Notes under the pieces: model-generated
Told to the model about the DNA's origin: nothing
The model's input: the letters and a program-made list of their open reading frames with translations, nothing else
Database searches by the model: none
Source of the DNA: Candidatus Pacearchaeota archaeon CG06_land_8_20_14_3_00_35_12
GTDB taxonomy: Archaea; Nanobdellota; Nanobdellia; Pacearchaeales; PEVX01
Direction: 5' to 3'
Assembly (NCBI GenBank): GCA_002780285.1
Contig: PEVX01000017.1
Coordinates: 1 to 37,146, forward strand
DNA: 37,146 bases
Program-made: the position numbers and the translations under genes
Part shown: positions 9,627 to 25,443 of the stretch, piece after piece
How the letters are laid out: every line of letters starts with the position of its first letter
Position numbering within the stretch: the first letter of the stretch is position 1

Positions 9627-10835
9627 TCAAGATTTTAAGGCAAGAGTCTCCTCAAGAATCGCCTTAACCTTTGGAATAAGATTCTGAGGAATGGCGAGAC
9701 TTATTTCTTTAGTCCTGCCATATCTCCCCTTAGATATCACTGTTGAATTTATCAGTCCAAACATTGCCCATTCTTCAATAATATCTCCTACTCTTCTCTG
9801 AGTTAATACTTCTGTGTTTACTTTTTGGCAAAGCTGGGAATATGTATTGTATATCTCGCTTGTAGAAATTTTTTTATTTCCATCTTTTAATAAATCAAGG
9901 ATTGTAAGCAAAGTTATCTGAAATTGCTTTGGCTCTGTTTGAACAACATCTAAAATTTTATCCCGTTCAATCTCATTATTCGCTTTATCAACATAATGCA
10001 TAGAAACTTTTTTTTGACCTTCTCTTTCTGCCAATTCTCCAGAAATTCTTAATAAATCTAACGCACGTCTTGCATCTCCATGCTCTAAGGCAGCAAGAGC
10101 TGCAGCTTTTTCAAGAACGCCTTCTTCAAGTGCTCCTTTTTTAAAAGCTTCTTTTGCTCTTTCTCTAAGGATATCTTGTAATTGAATTCCATTATAGGGC
10201 GGAAAAGTAATCTCTTCCTCGCCAAGCGAGCTTCTAACGCGAGGATCTAAATTATCTAAAAAAGTAAGATCATTACTGATCCCAATAATTACTATTTGCG
10301 TTTTCTCAAGTTCAGAATTTAATCTTGTTAAATTATATAAGAATTGATCTCCAATTCTCTTTACAGCCTCATCAATTTCATCTAAAATTAAAAGAATTAA
10401 TTGCTTTTTTTGTTCAATCAAATCTATAAACCGATTATAGACTTGATTTGTAGGAAGTCCTGTTGTGGGAACTTCTCCACCCAATTTTCTTATTAACTCA
10501 GCAAGAATTCTATATTCAGTATCAGAGATTTTCCTTAATTTACAATTAAGATATTCTATTGCAAGAGGAACTTTAAACTCTTTACTTTTCCGGAGGAGTT
10601 CATCTCTGATATAGAGAATGCTTAATGTTTTTCCTGTTCCAGTTTTTCCATAAACAAAAAGATTAGAACTCCTTTCCATTTTTAAAGCAGGAGCAAGAAT
10701 AGAGGCAATCTTCTTTATTTGCTCATCTCTATGAGGTATTGTTTCGGGAGTATAGTTTGTCTGAAGCTTAGATTTATCCTTAAAAATTTCCCCTTTAGAG
10801 AAAGCATCAAAAATTTTATCTAGTTTTATTGCCAT
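9627..10835 (-). CDS. cdc6: Orc1/Cdc6 replication initiator
   Basis: AAA+ Walker A VYGKTGTGKT, Walker B LILLILDEIDEA, sensor region, C-terminal winged helix; lies beside ORB-like motifs. Confidence 0.95.
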   Translation of the reverse strand: MAIKLDKIFDAFSKGEIFKDKSKLQTNYTPETIPHRDEQIKKIASILAPALKMERSSNLFVYGKTGTGKTLSILYIRDELLRKSKEFKVPLAIEYLNCKLRKISDTEYRILAELIRKLGGEVPTTGLPTNQVYNRFIDLIEQKKQLILLILDEIDEAVKRIGDQFLYNLTRLNSELEKTQIVIIGISNDLTFLDNLDPRVRSSLGEEEITFPPYNGIQLQDILRERAKEAFKKGALEEGVLEKAAALAALEHGDARRALDLLRISGELAEREGQKKVSMHYVDKANNEIERDKILDVVQTEPKQFQITLLTILDLLKDGNKKISTSEIYNTYSQLCQKVNTEVLTQRRVGDIIEEWAMFGLINSTVISKGRYGRTKEISLAIPQNLIPKVKAILEETLALKS

Positions 10836-10935
10836 TTTCCTCTTTTTTCCCTGTTTTCTTACTTACTTTCTTTCCTTCTTTTTAAAAAAGGTTGTCCTCT
10901 TTTTATAAAGATTATTCAATCAGAAAATAATGATA

Positions 10936-10960
10936 CAGACCTATATTTCCAATGGAACTA
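10936..10960 (-). promoter_or_regulatory. ORB-like origin recognition box 1
   Basis: Minus strand TAGTTCCATTGGAAATATAGGTC resembles the euryarchaeal ORB core TTCCANTGGAAAC followed by a G-stretch. Confidence 0.6.
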
Positions 10961-11140
10961 ATTTTTAATTGAAACAGAGTTTAAAAATTAATCTTATTTG
11001 AAAAGAGATGTCTTTAAATGATTAGTTATAATGCTTATTATTATAATATAATTAATATATAATATATAATATATAATATAAATATTTAAAAAACAAAAAT
11101 ATAATATCGACGAGAAAAAACCCAAAGCTTTTAAAAATCT

Positions 11141-11167
11141 TTCTCCATTGGAAACAAGAGGGTGACC
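11141..11167 (+). promoter_or_regulatory. ORB-like origin recognition box 2
   Basis: TTCTCCATTGGAAACAAGAGGGTGACC; good match to ORB core plus G-rich tail; shares TCCATTGGAAA with box 1 in inverted orientation. Confidence 0.7.
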
Positions 11168-11354
11168 CCTTTTCCGATAGAAAAGCTTATTTCTATATTC
11201 TCCTTTTCTCTCTTAAATTTAAGAAAAAAGGTTAAAAATCCATTAAAATACCTCCTCATTGAATTCTTTTCTTACCTTTTCTCTTTCTTTTTCCTTATAG
11301 TTATACTATTAGAGAATAGAAAAATTTATAAATAAATTATTTATCTAATGAAGC

Positions 11355-11636: not shown

Positions 11637-12068
11637 ATGTTGAAGATAATTGATCTCTTTTTTTCTAAAATCTCTGCTGAAAGATTTAAAGAGTTTGCCA
11701 GTTTCCAAGGAGAGACCCATATAAACTCCGATATTCAGATAAAAGAATTGGAGAAAAGAGATATTGAAAGTCAAAAAGACAAAAAAATTCTTGAAATCTT
11801 TTTTACTTTTGACGTAGTCTATCATCCTAATCTGGCTAAGTTAAATATTGAAGGAAAAATTATTGCTGGAGCTGAGAAAGAGGAGGCAGAGAATATCTTT
11901 AAAGAATGGAAAAAATCCAAAAAAATAGAAGATCTGCGAGTCCTTAACACAATTCTGCATAAATGCAACCTTAAGGCGCTTCAATTAGAAGAAGAATTAA
12001 AATTGCCTTCTCATATCCCTCTTCCAACACTTACTCCAAAAGTTATTGAAGAGAAGAAGAGATCTTAG
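11637..12068 (+). CDS. Conserved hypothetical protein, possible SecB-like fold
   Basis: Beta-rich N-terminus (FTFDVVYHPNLAKLNIEGKIIAGA), then helix ending CNLKALQLEEELKLPSHIPLPTL, similar in layout to SecB-type proteins; homology unconfirmed. Confidence 0.45.
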   Translation: MLKIIDLFFSKISAERFKEFASFQGETHINSDIQIKELEKRDIESQKDKKILEIFFTFDVVYHPNLAKLNIEGKIIAGAEKEEAENIFKEWKKSKKIEDLRVLNTILHKCNLKALQLEEELKLPSHIPLPTLTPKVIEEKKRS

Positions 12069-16115: not shown

Positions 16116-16382
16116 ATGAAAATTTCAAAGCAAAAAGAGGATAAAATAAGCGAACAAATTTTGCTTTTTTTATTTTCCCAATCACCTAAGGCAATTTTTA
16201 CAGCCCACATTGCTAGAGAACTTGCTCGCGATGAGGAATTTATCAAGAAATTATTGCTTGAACTTGAGAAAAAAGAGCTTGCTGTTCAGATAAAAAAGAA
16301 CAATGAGGGCGTCGATTATTCAAGAAGAATGCGCTGGAGATTAAGCACTAAGGCTTATGATGCATATAAAAAACTGCAATAA
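16116..16382 (+). CDS. Small winged-helix-like DNA-binding protein
   Basis: 88 aa with helix-turn-helix-like pattern (AIFTAHIARELARDEEFIKKLLLELEKKELAVQIKK...RMRWRLSTKAYDAYKKLQ); promoter-like CTTTTTAAATG upstream. Confidence 0.6.
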   Translation: MKISKQKEDKISEQILLFLFSQSPKAIFTAHIARELARDEEFIKKLLLELEKKELAVQIKKNNEGVDYSRRMRWRLSTKAYDAYKKLQ

Positions 16383-16406: not shown

Positions 16407-17117
16407 TTGAAAAACCAAAAAAGAAAGAAAATGACAGAAGAAGACGCAATACGCGAAGCATTTTCGCGCATAAAACAAGATATCCTTGAATTAAAACAAG
16501 AAATTAGCCTATTAAAACAGGAAATTTATGCTATAAAACAAGATAAGCTTGAAAACCCAACAGATCTCCAACAAATAGCCATAACTGAAGAAAGACCCCA
16601 ACACATAAATCAAGGAGATAAGCCTTATCTCTTAAGTTCCATAGGAAATGATGGGGTTCCAACAGACAAACAGACAGACAACAAACAGACCAACAGACAG
16701 GTTTCTGAAGCATATTTTAAGCTGAATAACTATGCTCCTGAAAAGCAATTTACCGACGATAAACAAGACAATATGTGCCAAAAAGACAACCTAATGGCCT
16801 TGGTTTCAGGGTTAAAAGAAGAATTAAGGCAGAGCTTCCTTAAACTGACAAAACAAGAGTTTCTAGTGTTCTCAGTCATTTATGGCCTTGATGATCAGGG
16901 AGTTCAAGTTACATATCCCGTCGTCGCTGAGAAAACAAAGCTTTCTGAGAGCTCAATACGAGATTATATTCTGAGGATTATGGGAAAAGGCATACCTTTA
17001 GAGAAGCAGAAAATCAACAATAAACAAGTCATAATTAAAGTAAAACCAGAGCTTAGGAACCTTACAACCTTAGATTCTTTGATAAAATTAAGAGAATTTG
17101 GCTTAGATAAGCCTTAG
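16407..17117 (+). CDS. Coiled-coil / Q-T-rich linker / C-terminal HTH protein (paralogue A)
   Basis: Four heptads IKQDILE-LKQEISL-LKQEIYA-IKQDKLE, polar linker TDKQTDNKQTNRQ, C-terminal LTKQEFLVFSVIYGL...VTYPVVAEKTKLSESSIRDYILRIMGKGIPL HTH-like region. Confidence 0.7.
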   Translation: MKNQKRKKMTEEDAIREAFSRIKQDILELKQEISLLKQEIYAIKQDKLENPTDLQQIAITEERPQHINQGDKPYLLSSIGNDGVPTDKQTDNKQTNRQVSEAYFKLNNYAPEKQFTDDKQDNMCQKDNLMALVSGLKEELRQSFLKLTKQEFLVFSVIYGLDDQGVQVTYPVVAEKTKLSESSIRDYILRIMGKGIPLEKQKINNKQVIIKVKPELRNLTTLDSLIKLREFGLDKP

Positions 17118-17429
17118 AAAGCCCTTTTTTTAATCATTTACTATATAAAACAGTCTCATCTTTACGTTATACCGAATATCTTTTAAGAACTATTGATTAT
17201 TGATTTTTTTGCCTTTTTAAGCCTTAATTAACCTATTTTTTGCATTTCTTTTGATGAATTTTAAAGCTTTTTCTCACACTTTTACTTCAACTCTTTCTTT
17301 TTCCCCTCAAACAGTCTTTTTTCTATTTTCTGGCCTTTTACCCCTTTTTCTCTATTTTTTTAATTTTCAGGTCTTTTTAGCCATATCTAATAACTCTCAC
17401 TTTTTCTTTTTCCAGGCTTTTTAGAATTG

Positions 17430-17444
17430 TTAAAGCGAACCTTT
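17430..17444 (+). repeat. Direct repeat TTAAAGCGAACCTTT copy 1
   Basis: Identical 15-mer at 17430 and 17471. Confidence 0.8.
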
Positions 17445-17470
17445 CATAATATTTTTTGCCTTTAAATTCA

Positions 17471-17485
17471 TTAAAGCGAACCTTT
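17471..17485 (+). repeat. Direct repeat TTAAAGCGAACCTTT copy 2
   Basis: Identical to 17430-17444; spacing 41 bp. Confidence 0.8.
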
Positions 17486-17523
17486 ACACCCTCACTTTTC
17501 TATTTTTTACCTATTTTTCTAGA

Positions 17524-18141
17524 CTATTTCTTCATGCTTTTACCTGTTTTTAAGTTCGTTTTAATAGTCTTTAATATCATGGACTTCATTTCATCTGAAA
17601 TGAATATTCGCTTCTTGCCATTTTTCTCAACCATTTCTTCAACTAATCCTTCACTTTTCTGTCTTATGCTGTTTATCTGGCCACGAATAGTTGCTTTATC
17701 TTTTCCCATCAAAGAAGCAACATCTTCATAGCTCAATTTCATGTTTGTATTCAGAAGCACCCAGACAATAGATCTCTCCATTGAAGATAAATTTCTCATT
17801 ACCCCTGTTTGAACAGCTGTTTGAACAGCTGTTTGAACACCTTGAACAGCTGTTTGTTTATGAACAGCTGTTTGTTCATGTTTAAACGGCTGTTTAAAAC
17901 CACGAGTTCCAAACAAAGAAATAAAACTTTTAAGCTCTTCAAATTCAGATTCTACCGTCGACAAACGTTCTCTGAGCTCTTCAATATCTTCAGTATGCCC
18001 CAAAGTGCGATTATTTAGATGGCGGATCCATTCTGCTGTTTTTTTTAAGTCATCTTTAACAGCAGAAAAAGAGTTTTTTATGCCATCTTTGAGCTCATCA
18101 AGGTCGTCATCTCTCTTTTTTCCAAAAAACAACCAGGCCAT
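17524..18141 (-). CDS. Coiled-coil / QTAV-repeat linker / C-terminal HTH protein (paralogue B)
   Basis: N-terminal charged coiled coil, linker HEQTAVHKQTAVQGVQTAVQTAVQTGV, C-terminal LSSMERSIVWVLLNTNMKLSYEDVASLMGKDKATIRGQINSIRQKS HTH-like region alignable by eye with paralogue A; TATA-like TTTATATA upstream. Confidence 0.7.
   Translation of the reverse strand: MAWLFFGKKRDDDLDELKDGIKNSFSAVKDDLKKTAEWIRHLNNRTLGHTEDIEELRERLSTVESEFEELKSFISLFGTRGFKQPFKHEQTAVHKQTAVQGVQTAVQTAVQTGVMRNLSSMERSIVWVLLNTNMKLSYEDVASLMGKDKATIRGQINSIRQKSEGLVEEMVEKNGKKRIFISDEMKSMILKTIKTNLKTGKSMKK
17811..17898. repeat. Intragenic iteron array: GAACAGCTGTTT palindromic units plus TTTAAACGGCTGTTTAAA
   Basis: Exact units at 17811-17822, 17823-17834, 17844-17855, 17862-17873; degenerate unit at 17835-17843; near-perfect 18-bp palindrome at 17881-17898. 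Each exact 12-bp unit encodes QTAV on the minus strand. Confidence 0.9.
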
Positions 18142-18233: not shown

Positions 18234-18296
18234 GAACAGCTGTTTGGAATTGCATTTTACCGACGAAAAAGCACTTAAACAGGTGTTTAAACAGCC
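18234..18296. promoter_or_regulatory. Matching iteron-like motifs in the divergent intergenic region
   Basis: GAACAGCTGTTT at 18234-18245; TTAAACAGGTGTTTAA at 18275-18290 running into TGTTTAAACAGC at 18284-18295, matching 17879-17890 (TGTTTAAACGGC) except one base. Confidence 0.75.
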
Positions 18297-20471: not shown

Positions 20472-21287
20472 ATGATAGACCTTGAAAAATTAAAAACTGA
20501 GATGAAATTGAGAGGATTTACAGATAAAACCATTTCAACATATTTATTTTTCAATGAAAAATTTCTGAATTTTATTGGGAAACAAGAAGCAGAGATAGTT
20601 GGTGATGATATCAAGAAATATTTTGCTTCATTAATGGACAAAAAATCAAGAAACACCATGATGATTGCATATTCTGCATTAAAGTTTTATTATGACGAGA
20701 TCTTGAAAAAAAGCATTTTTCCAGACATTAAATTACCTAAAAAAGAACAGACAATGCCAAATGTCCTTACAAAAGATGAACTCAAAAAACTCATTGATTC
20801 AAGCCAAACAAGAAAAAGTAAATTTATCATTTCATTTCTGTATGCAACAGGCATGAGGGTTTCTGAACTTGTCAATCTGAAAAAAGAAGACATAAATTTA
20901 CAGGAAAAGGTTGGATGGGTTAGAAGAGGAAAAGGCAAGAAAGATAGATTATTTATTATTCCTGAAAAGCTCGTTCCAGAAATTCAATTCTTTATTGACA
21001 ATTCAAAAACACCCTTCCTTTTTTCTAGCAGTAATAAAGATGAGCATTTAACTGCAAGAAATATTCAAAAAATTTTAAAAACAACTGCAAAAATTGCAGG
21101 AATAAGTAAAAAAGTTTCCCCACATACGCTGCGTCATTCATTTGGGACTCATTTGCTTGATTCTGGTGTCGATATTCGCAGAATACAGGAACTATTGGGT
21201 CATTCAAGTCTTCAAACCACACAGATTTACACACATATTTCAACAGAAGAAATTAAAAAAATAAAAAGCCCTTTTGAAGAATTGTAA
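20472..21287 (+). CDS. xerA: Tyrosine recombinase/integrase, XerA-like
   Basis: ATGMRVSELVNLK, HTLRHSFGTHLLDSGVDIRRIQELLGHSSLQTTQIYTH: R...HxxR...H...Y catalytic residues. Confidence 0.92.
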   Translation: MIDLEKLKTEMKLRGFTDKTISTYLFFNEKFLNFIGKQEAEIVGDDIKKYFASLMDKKSRNTMMIAYSALKFYYDEILKKSIFPDIKLPKKEQTMPNVLTKDELKKLIDSSQTRKSKFIISFLYATGMRVSELVNLKKEDINLQEKVGWVRRGKGKKDRLFIIPEKLVPEIQFFIDNSKTPFLFSSSNKDEHLTARNIQKILKTTAKIAGISKKVSPHTLRHSFGTHLLDSGVDIRRIQELLGHSSLQTTQIYTHISTEEIKKIKSPFEEL

Positions 21288-25280: not shown

Positions 25281-25325
25281 GTTTGAAAGATTTATAAATA
25301 ACTTAAAAGCTTTTTATGATTGTTT

Positions 25326-25409
25326 GCGGGAGTGCCGGAGTGGCCAAACGGGCTAGCTTAAGGAGCTAGTAGCTTAGTGCTTACACAGGTTCGAATCCTG
25401 TCTCCCGCA
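25326..25409 (+). tRNA. tRNA-Leu (apparent anticodon AAG)
   Basis: GCGGGAG/CTCCCGC acceptor, D arm CCG/CGG, anticodon stem CTAGC/GCTAG with loop TTAAGGA, long variable arm, T arm ACAGG-TTCGAAT-CCTGT, A73. Confidence 0.92.
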
Positions 25410-25443
25410 TTTACTATCAAACATTAAAAAACAACGGAGAAAA

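Follow-up and report, generated by a model that had tools for sequence, protein, structure and literature searches.

Palindrome arrays and a putative Orc1/Cdc6 box inside two facing genes of Pacearchaeota: a candidate site of replication control

Replication sites described inside and outside coding sequence

The origin of phage lambda is located inside gene O, where nearly palindromic repeats serve as binding sites for dimers of the gene's own product (PMC5043065). For repABC plasmids, oriV was found to reside within repC, meaning that a cis-acting site is part of the coding sequence and sensitive to silent mutations (PMC3155836). Work with Sulfolobus oriC1 revealed that an extra sequence-specific protein, UBP, which acts at ucm beside the ORBs, is needed (PMC12141716), and for Haloarcula hispanica oriC2D a separate extra-ORB region was described, whose 11 intergenic ORBs lower initiation (PMC3936714). 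For bacterial oriC, a basal unwinding system with DnaA-trios is reported, in which the initiator box is followed closely by short tandem repeats (PMC6669920).

The window considered here is a stretch of 37,146 nucleotides of a chromosomal contig from a Candidatus Pacearchaeota archaeon, and it holds two facing genes, A and B, whose linker-coding DNA carries repeated sites. To our knowledge, the start and control of replication in DPANN archaea are almost unknown; a literature search returned no dedicated study of Pacearchaeota or Woesearchaeota replication origins and none on intragenic iterons or ORBs in archaea or on DPANN winged-helix segregation proteins. With lambda O the locus shares the repeated sites inside the genes, in the linker between structured domains, and as to this layout the analogy drawn in the first-pass annotation was upheld. 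The differences are that A and B match no known initiator family above cut-off, that their winged helix is C-terminal and follows a coiled coil, that no adjacent AT-rich element was found, and that they form a conserved archaeal chromosomal locus of two facing genes with a putative Orc1/Cdc6 box. Like the oriV of repABC plasmids, the locus comprises a replication-type site in coding sequence, but repC has an AT-rich region and is devoid of iterons whereas A and B possess iterons and no AT-rich region. As there is no homology and no AT-rich element at the array, and as the genes face each other on a cellular chromosome and carry an archaeal initiator box, the A/B locus is a member of neither the lambda O nor the repABC type.

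Compared to Sulfolobus oriC1, the same kind of ORB is found and A and B would be the additional DNA-binding proteins beside it; the ORB of the A-B locus is, however, intragenic, single or tandem and not flanked by a DUE, and while UBP binds hundreds of sites, the strong sites of A are mostly local. The likeness to oriC2D lies in extra ORBs which are placed apart from oriC and close to the initiator gene, the difference being that the A-B locus has one or two ORBs inside a gene, accompanied by partner arrays. The order of elements in B, an ORB and then short tandem repeats, resembles that of the DnaA-trio system, but the B repeat unit is mostly 4 bp long, differs between lineages and goes along with the HTH of its host gene.

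The palindrome array in the linker of gene A

Gene A (17524 to 18141, minus strand) encodes a protein for which the AlphaFold prediction yields a coiled coil (residues 7-78) and a MarR-like winged helix (residues 113-204), joined by a disordered linker (residues 79-112), with which the array coincides. According to Foldseek, the winged helix of A falls near MarR-like regulators and that of B likewise among MarR-like winged helices. For both proteins no Pfam or NCBIfam model was reached above its cut-off, PHROGs gave no convincing match and a PDB sequence search assigned neither protein to a family above cut-off; relatedness to known initiator families was sought in Pfam, NCBIfam and PHROGs and none was found above cut-off.

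The array of AACANNTGTT palindromes extends from 17811 to 17898 (minus strand) and is composed of QTAV units and of a near-palindrome written in another frame as KQPFK. Four exact GAACAGCTGTTT units, each read in the minus-strand ORF as CAA ACA GCT GTT (QTAV), are located at 17811-17822 and 17823-17834, which form a tandem pair, and at 17844-17855 and 17862-17873; between the second and the third of them sits a degenerate unit, GAACACCTTGAA, and the 18-bp near-palindrome TTTAAACGGCTGTTTAAA occupies 17881-17898. These intragenic units and their QTAV reading had been listed in the first-pass annotation and were all recovered at their positions, but two sites upstream of the gene had been overlooked, namely a fifth exact AACAGCTGTT copy at 18235-18244, 94 bp before the start codon of A, and AACAGGTGTT at 18278-18287, which lies within TAAACANNTGTTTA. 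The array is far beyond chance: AACAGCTGTT is present five times in the window as compared to 0.03 expected copies, and none of 100 shuffles reached five. Two copies exist elsewhere in the 566-kb genome, beyond the A locus (C32:553 and C35:5555); they fall into unrelated regions, fit chance and were set aside. Across loci, 14-mer sites of the TAAACA(G/C)NTGTTTA type were found 50-300 bp upstream of A in 50 of 81 cases and are rare at other flank distances, and the strong A-type sites of the whole genome cluster at the A locus in several of the 13 genomes checked.

The codons of the linker were analysed in 79 homologous A genes, whose products are roughly 45-60% identical to that of the window, by shuffling synonymous codons within each gene in 500 permutations, with kinship addressed solely via a codon control on HTH residues. 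The linkers contain 169 AACANNTGTT palindromes versus 33.3±4.9 after permutation (maximum 47 among the 500) and 233 ACANNTGT sites versus 87.7±6.9, while the remainder of the same genes holds only 5 of the latter. The linker codons are frozen so as to keep the palindrome AACANNTGTY, which a second reading frame encodes as well, giving the peptide KQ[LV]FK, and codon choice depends on where in the palindrome a codon falls and not on the residue. Gln is encoded by CAA in 204 of 213 instances within QTxV and by CAG in 42 of 44 within KQxF, the split being 60/40 elsewhere, and Leu is CTG in 13 of 15 KQLF instances versus 4% elsewhere. Invariant HTH residues of the same genes possess scrambled codons (Gly: GGA 21, GGG 20, GGT 18, GGC 17, the modal codon accounting for 28%; Gln: 59% CAA, versus 99-100% CAA for linker Gln), and because of this shared ancestry is not the cause of the frozen codons; synonymous permutation and the scrambled HTH codons together rule out codon bias as well as shared ancestry. 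Homologues combining the same linker peptide with randomised synonymous codons were looked for and did not occur. The array behaves as had been proposed from the single sequence, where DNA-level selection had been suggested and the retention of the palindromes in homologous linkers put forward as a check: codons are frozen in the linker only and in several frames, and the array constitutes a set of putative protein-binding sites under selection at the DNA level.

A further check put forward there was whether the repeat co-varies with the recognition helix, and such co-variation was observed when the remaining orders of the class were included. A genes of the RRH type (RRHIN in place of RGQIN) carry CGTTCA/TGAACG in 13 of 13 cases and no ACANNTGT, with 108 observed versus 17.5±4.2 expected occurrences and CGTTCA being read in all three frames, whereas those of the RGQ type carry ACANNTGT sites in 6 of 6 cases (17 observed versus 4.7 expected) and no CGTTCA; the 13 and the 6 genes share descent, so that these counts represent few independent helix/array switches.

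Within the order A is present in 173 of 207 genomes, almost always once, a class-wide sample of 383 genomes contained relatives in 152, and its chromosomal neighbourhood is conserved, the loci stemming mostly from draft metagenome-assembled genomes. One record titled Patescibacteria group bacterium KA32 (JAHYJW010000005.1; locus L121) has a Pacearchaeota A/B locus and is probably mislabelled or a mixed bin. Another genome (G473, locus L193), which is filed under another order of the class, has a Pacearchaeota-like A/B locus close to that of L069, with contamination or misplacement as possible reasons.

The facing gene B and the surroundings of orc1/cdc6

Gene B (16407 to 17117, plus strand, ATG at 16431) is convergent with A in 81 of 81 loci and encodes a coiled coil, a disordered linker (50-117) and a winged helix, for which profile models across B relatives returned generic winged-helix matches only, including a weak DnaD_N. 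In 80 of 81 loci its linker DNA carries an archaeal ORB (TTTCCANAGGAAATGAAGGGGTT) followed by ACAG repeats, the consensus across loci being aTTTCCAnaGGAAATgaaGGGGTTcCaACAGACAgACAgACAgAC, of which the first part fits the archaeal ORB consensus, published as CTTCCAGTGGAAACGAAAGGGGT (PMC4153887) and as TCCA[CG]T[TG]GAAA[TC][GA]AAGGGGT (PMC4164010). In the window, the ORB TCCATAGGAAATGATGGGGTT matches the published consensus and is located within the coding sequence at 16638-16658 (plus strand, peptide SIGNDGV); immediately after it, at 16659-16699 on the same strand, ACAG/ACAGAC direct repeats of period 4 encode the peptide PTDKQTDNKQTNRQ. Measured against TCCANNGGAAANNNNGGGG, the B ORB is free of mismatches in 74 of 81 loci and has at most one in 80, the remaining locus having B cut by a contig end. 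The ORB 21-mer TCCANNGGAAANNNNGGGGTT was detected in 141 of 192 genomes of the order as compared to 0 for the reversed control, mostly at one place per genome; where a second place exists, it is often at orc1 or at a distance of 43 bp. The 43-bp copy, seen in about a dozen loci, is read in another frame (VPQEIEGLK versus SIGNxGV). The ORB codons are frozen as well (Ser TCC 96%, Gly GGA 100% and GGG 100%), and ACAGAC occurs 447 times in B linkers versus an expectation of 139±10.5. Judged by its match to the ORB consensus, the B element is a putative Orc1/Cdc6 docking site.

In other orders the ORB of B is kept and the repeats after it become TCAC, GCGA, TTCA, AAGC or AATC tetramers or 10-bp units, whereby the B motif SSIRDY pairs with ACAG-type repeats and other helices pair with other units, a rough correspondence that is based on small numbers. 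An AT-rich unwinding element was sought by the B ORB and its repeats and through the A gene, and no AT peak emerged; an inverted ORB pair flanking an AT-rich DUE is absent at B, where the ORB is single or tandem. The convergent intergenic region between B and A (17118-17523) has a mean A+T content of 73% over the loci, is T-rich on the B strand and gives no strong unwinding-element signal. Two TTAAAGCGAACCTTT copies are located in it at 17430-17485, and some relatives have a similar TTAAAACGAACTTTT in their B linker, where it reads LKRTF.

The orc1/cdc6 initiator gene of the window (9627-10835, minus strand; Cdc6_C, Cdc6_lid) is adjoined by a probable conventional oriC at 10836-11354, in which inverted degenerate ORBs at 10938-10956 (minus) and 11144-11162 (plus) surround an AT-rich part at 11037-11089 that consists of a TATAATA repeat tract, a layout which recurs in similar form in many other Pacearchaeota loci. 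In the 700 bp before orc1 of 31 loci, an 80-bp window of 88-100% A+T was identified, together with inverted degenerate ORBs (at most two mismatches) in 17 of the 31. The A-B locus of the window lies about 6 kb from this orc1-linked oriC; it lies 3-20 kb from orc1 in several genomes, orc1 being found within 6 kb of A/B in 33 of 81 loci, a count partly limited by contig ends, and on another contig in G192. By its sequence features the A-B locus appears as a further Orc1-type site distinct from that oriC, with an ORB that is the better of the two but lacking an AT-rich element, and since a conventional oriC-like region adjoins orc1, it need not be an origin. GC/AT skew of three single-contig genomes, computed in 20-kb stretches, gave no usable origin signal: two genomes were uninformative and the third has its extremes away from both A/B and orc1. 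The first-pass annotation, though right about the array in A, had missed both the facing gene with its ORB and ACAG repeats and the separate oriC-like region by orc1/cdc6.

Several neighbours accompany the locus. Gene C (16116-16382, plus strand), which encodes a small winged-helix protein of 88 residues, is situated directly upstream of B and is present in 69 of 81 loci. A protein of 143 residues (11637-12068) is without NCBIfam match and has a relative near A/B in 44 of 81 loci and apparently in other orders too. A tyrosine recombinase gene (20472-21287; Phage_integrase, Phage_int_SAM_4; XerA-like) resides a few kb from A and is a neighbour in 35 of 81 loci; in one locus of another order (L188) such a gene is directly upstream of A. 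At 25325-25410, ARAGORN called a tRNA-Leu with the anticodon AAG, which is unusual in an archaeon.

Function of the A-B locus

Based on these features, a model is suggested in which the array sites are placed in the DNA encoding the disordered linker of A, where any sequence would be tolerated because the linker peptide is disordered. The winged helix of A most likely binds the palindromes as a dimer, in its own gene and upstream of it, and that of B probably reads the direct repeats in its own linker DNA, while Orc1/Cdc6 would dock on the ORB inside B. A, B and Orc1/Cdc6 may thus assemble on both genes into an intragenic nucleoprotein complex, whose most likely task would be the control of replication initiation, by initiator loading, by titration or by handcuffing of the nearby oriC, and A may in addition autoregulate its own expression through the upstream sites. 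Taken as a whole, namely that A and B each bind the array of their own gene, form a control complex of chromosome replication with Orc1/Cdc6 and that A is autoregulated, we judge this model to be reasonably probable from the sequence comparisons. Both modes of control have precedent, since the extra-ORB region of H. hispanica and the extra binding protein at Sulfolobus oriC1 are known. An ORB cluster of the titration type was not found at the A-B locus, which has one and sometimes two ORBs, and with only about one to two ORBs strong titration is doubtful.

The main rival to replication control is chromosome segregation, in which A and B would be centromere-binding proteins, the intragenic arrays an origin-proximal site resembling parS/parC and the ORB-bound Orc1/Cdc6 the coupling to replication. 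Direct and inverted site arrays in or beside the gene of the putative binding protein, the long coiled coil, the origin-proximal position and the single copy throughout the order would fit this, as would the tyrosine recombinase gene within a few kb in 35 of 81 loci; yet the ORB is a box for the replication initiator, and inspection by eye of the 30 commonest neighbour clusters and of conserved neighbours within 6 kb revealed no ParA-like ATPase. Segregation is considered rather unlikely. That the arrays serve autoregulation only, being operators which repress transcription of A and B with the ORB allowing Orc1 to regulate B, is in keeping with the MarR-like folds, with 50 of 81 loci having sites between -50 and -300 ahead of A and with most strong sites being at the gene itself. 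It is nevertheless regarded as improbable, because upstream sites are missing in 31 of 81 loci and in most genes from other orders, while the intragenic array is nearly always there, and because several deep intragenic operators and a near-perfect ORB in the facing gene exceed the needs of an autoregulator.

The first-pass annotation had also entertained a replicon, integrated or domesticated, to which the array would belong as an intragenic site. The layout does resemble lambda O and RepA_N-type rep genes, and an integrase-family gene is nearby; the patchy distribution of a recently integrated mobile element is, however, not seen, A being present in single copy in 173 of 207 genomes of the order with synteny in 81 of 81 loci, a conserved chromosomal neighbourhood, relatives across the class and no convincing PHROG match. 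Recent integration was rejected on these grounds and a plasmid or viral origin, ancient capture included, is very improbable. Least credence, next to none, is given to an element acting as RNA or to a repeat that is kept purely as peptide and shows codon bias: QTxV and QTDR are indeed conserved as peptide repeats, but codon choice is frozen there in comparison with the remainder of the gene, the sites are written in two or three frames as different peptides, they form palindromes and are present upstream as well, in either orientation, and the ORB is found outside coding sequence too, beside orc1.

Returning to replication control, a broader formulation is that Nanoarchaeia possess a hitherto undescribed locus, for replication control or as origin/segregation site, which is wholly contained in two facing genes, with the ORB and lineage-specific repeats in B and dyads in A, each co-evolving with its own winged helix; we consider the case for it about evenly balanced, and give the same even chance to its corollary that the A and B linkers are essentially DNA elements which happen to be translated. 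The locus shows initiator-type sites, identified by consensus, hidden in the coding DNA of a cellular chromosome, and also how a disordered linker can be shaped by selection on DNA rather than on protein. Ori-Finder 2 reads intergenic sequence only and therefore does not scan such intragenic sites (PMC4164010), and if the reading is true, origin finders with this restriction would miss the two-gene locus. Iterons in coding sequence are already known; the A-B locus would be a new kind if an ORB-linked role in replication were proven. Three concrete protein-DNA pairs are predicted from sequence alone and can be checked in vitro, and the orders provide a natural series of co-evolved protein/site variants. 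An A-like protein of genome G292 (locus L203) differs in its helix (TVKNQIN), and neither an array nor an ORB could be recognised in its vicinity, possibly reflecting loss or a paralogue. In genome G247 (locus L206), two ORBs 335 bp apart are followed by TCAACAATCT repeats of 10 bp, located within or next to coiled-coil/HTH genes that share one strand, which represents a tandem variant of the A/B plan.
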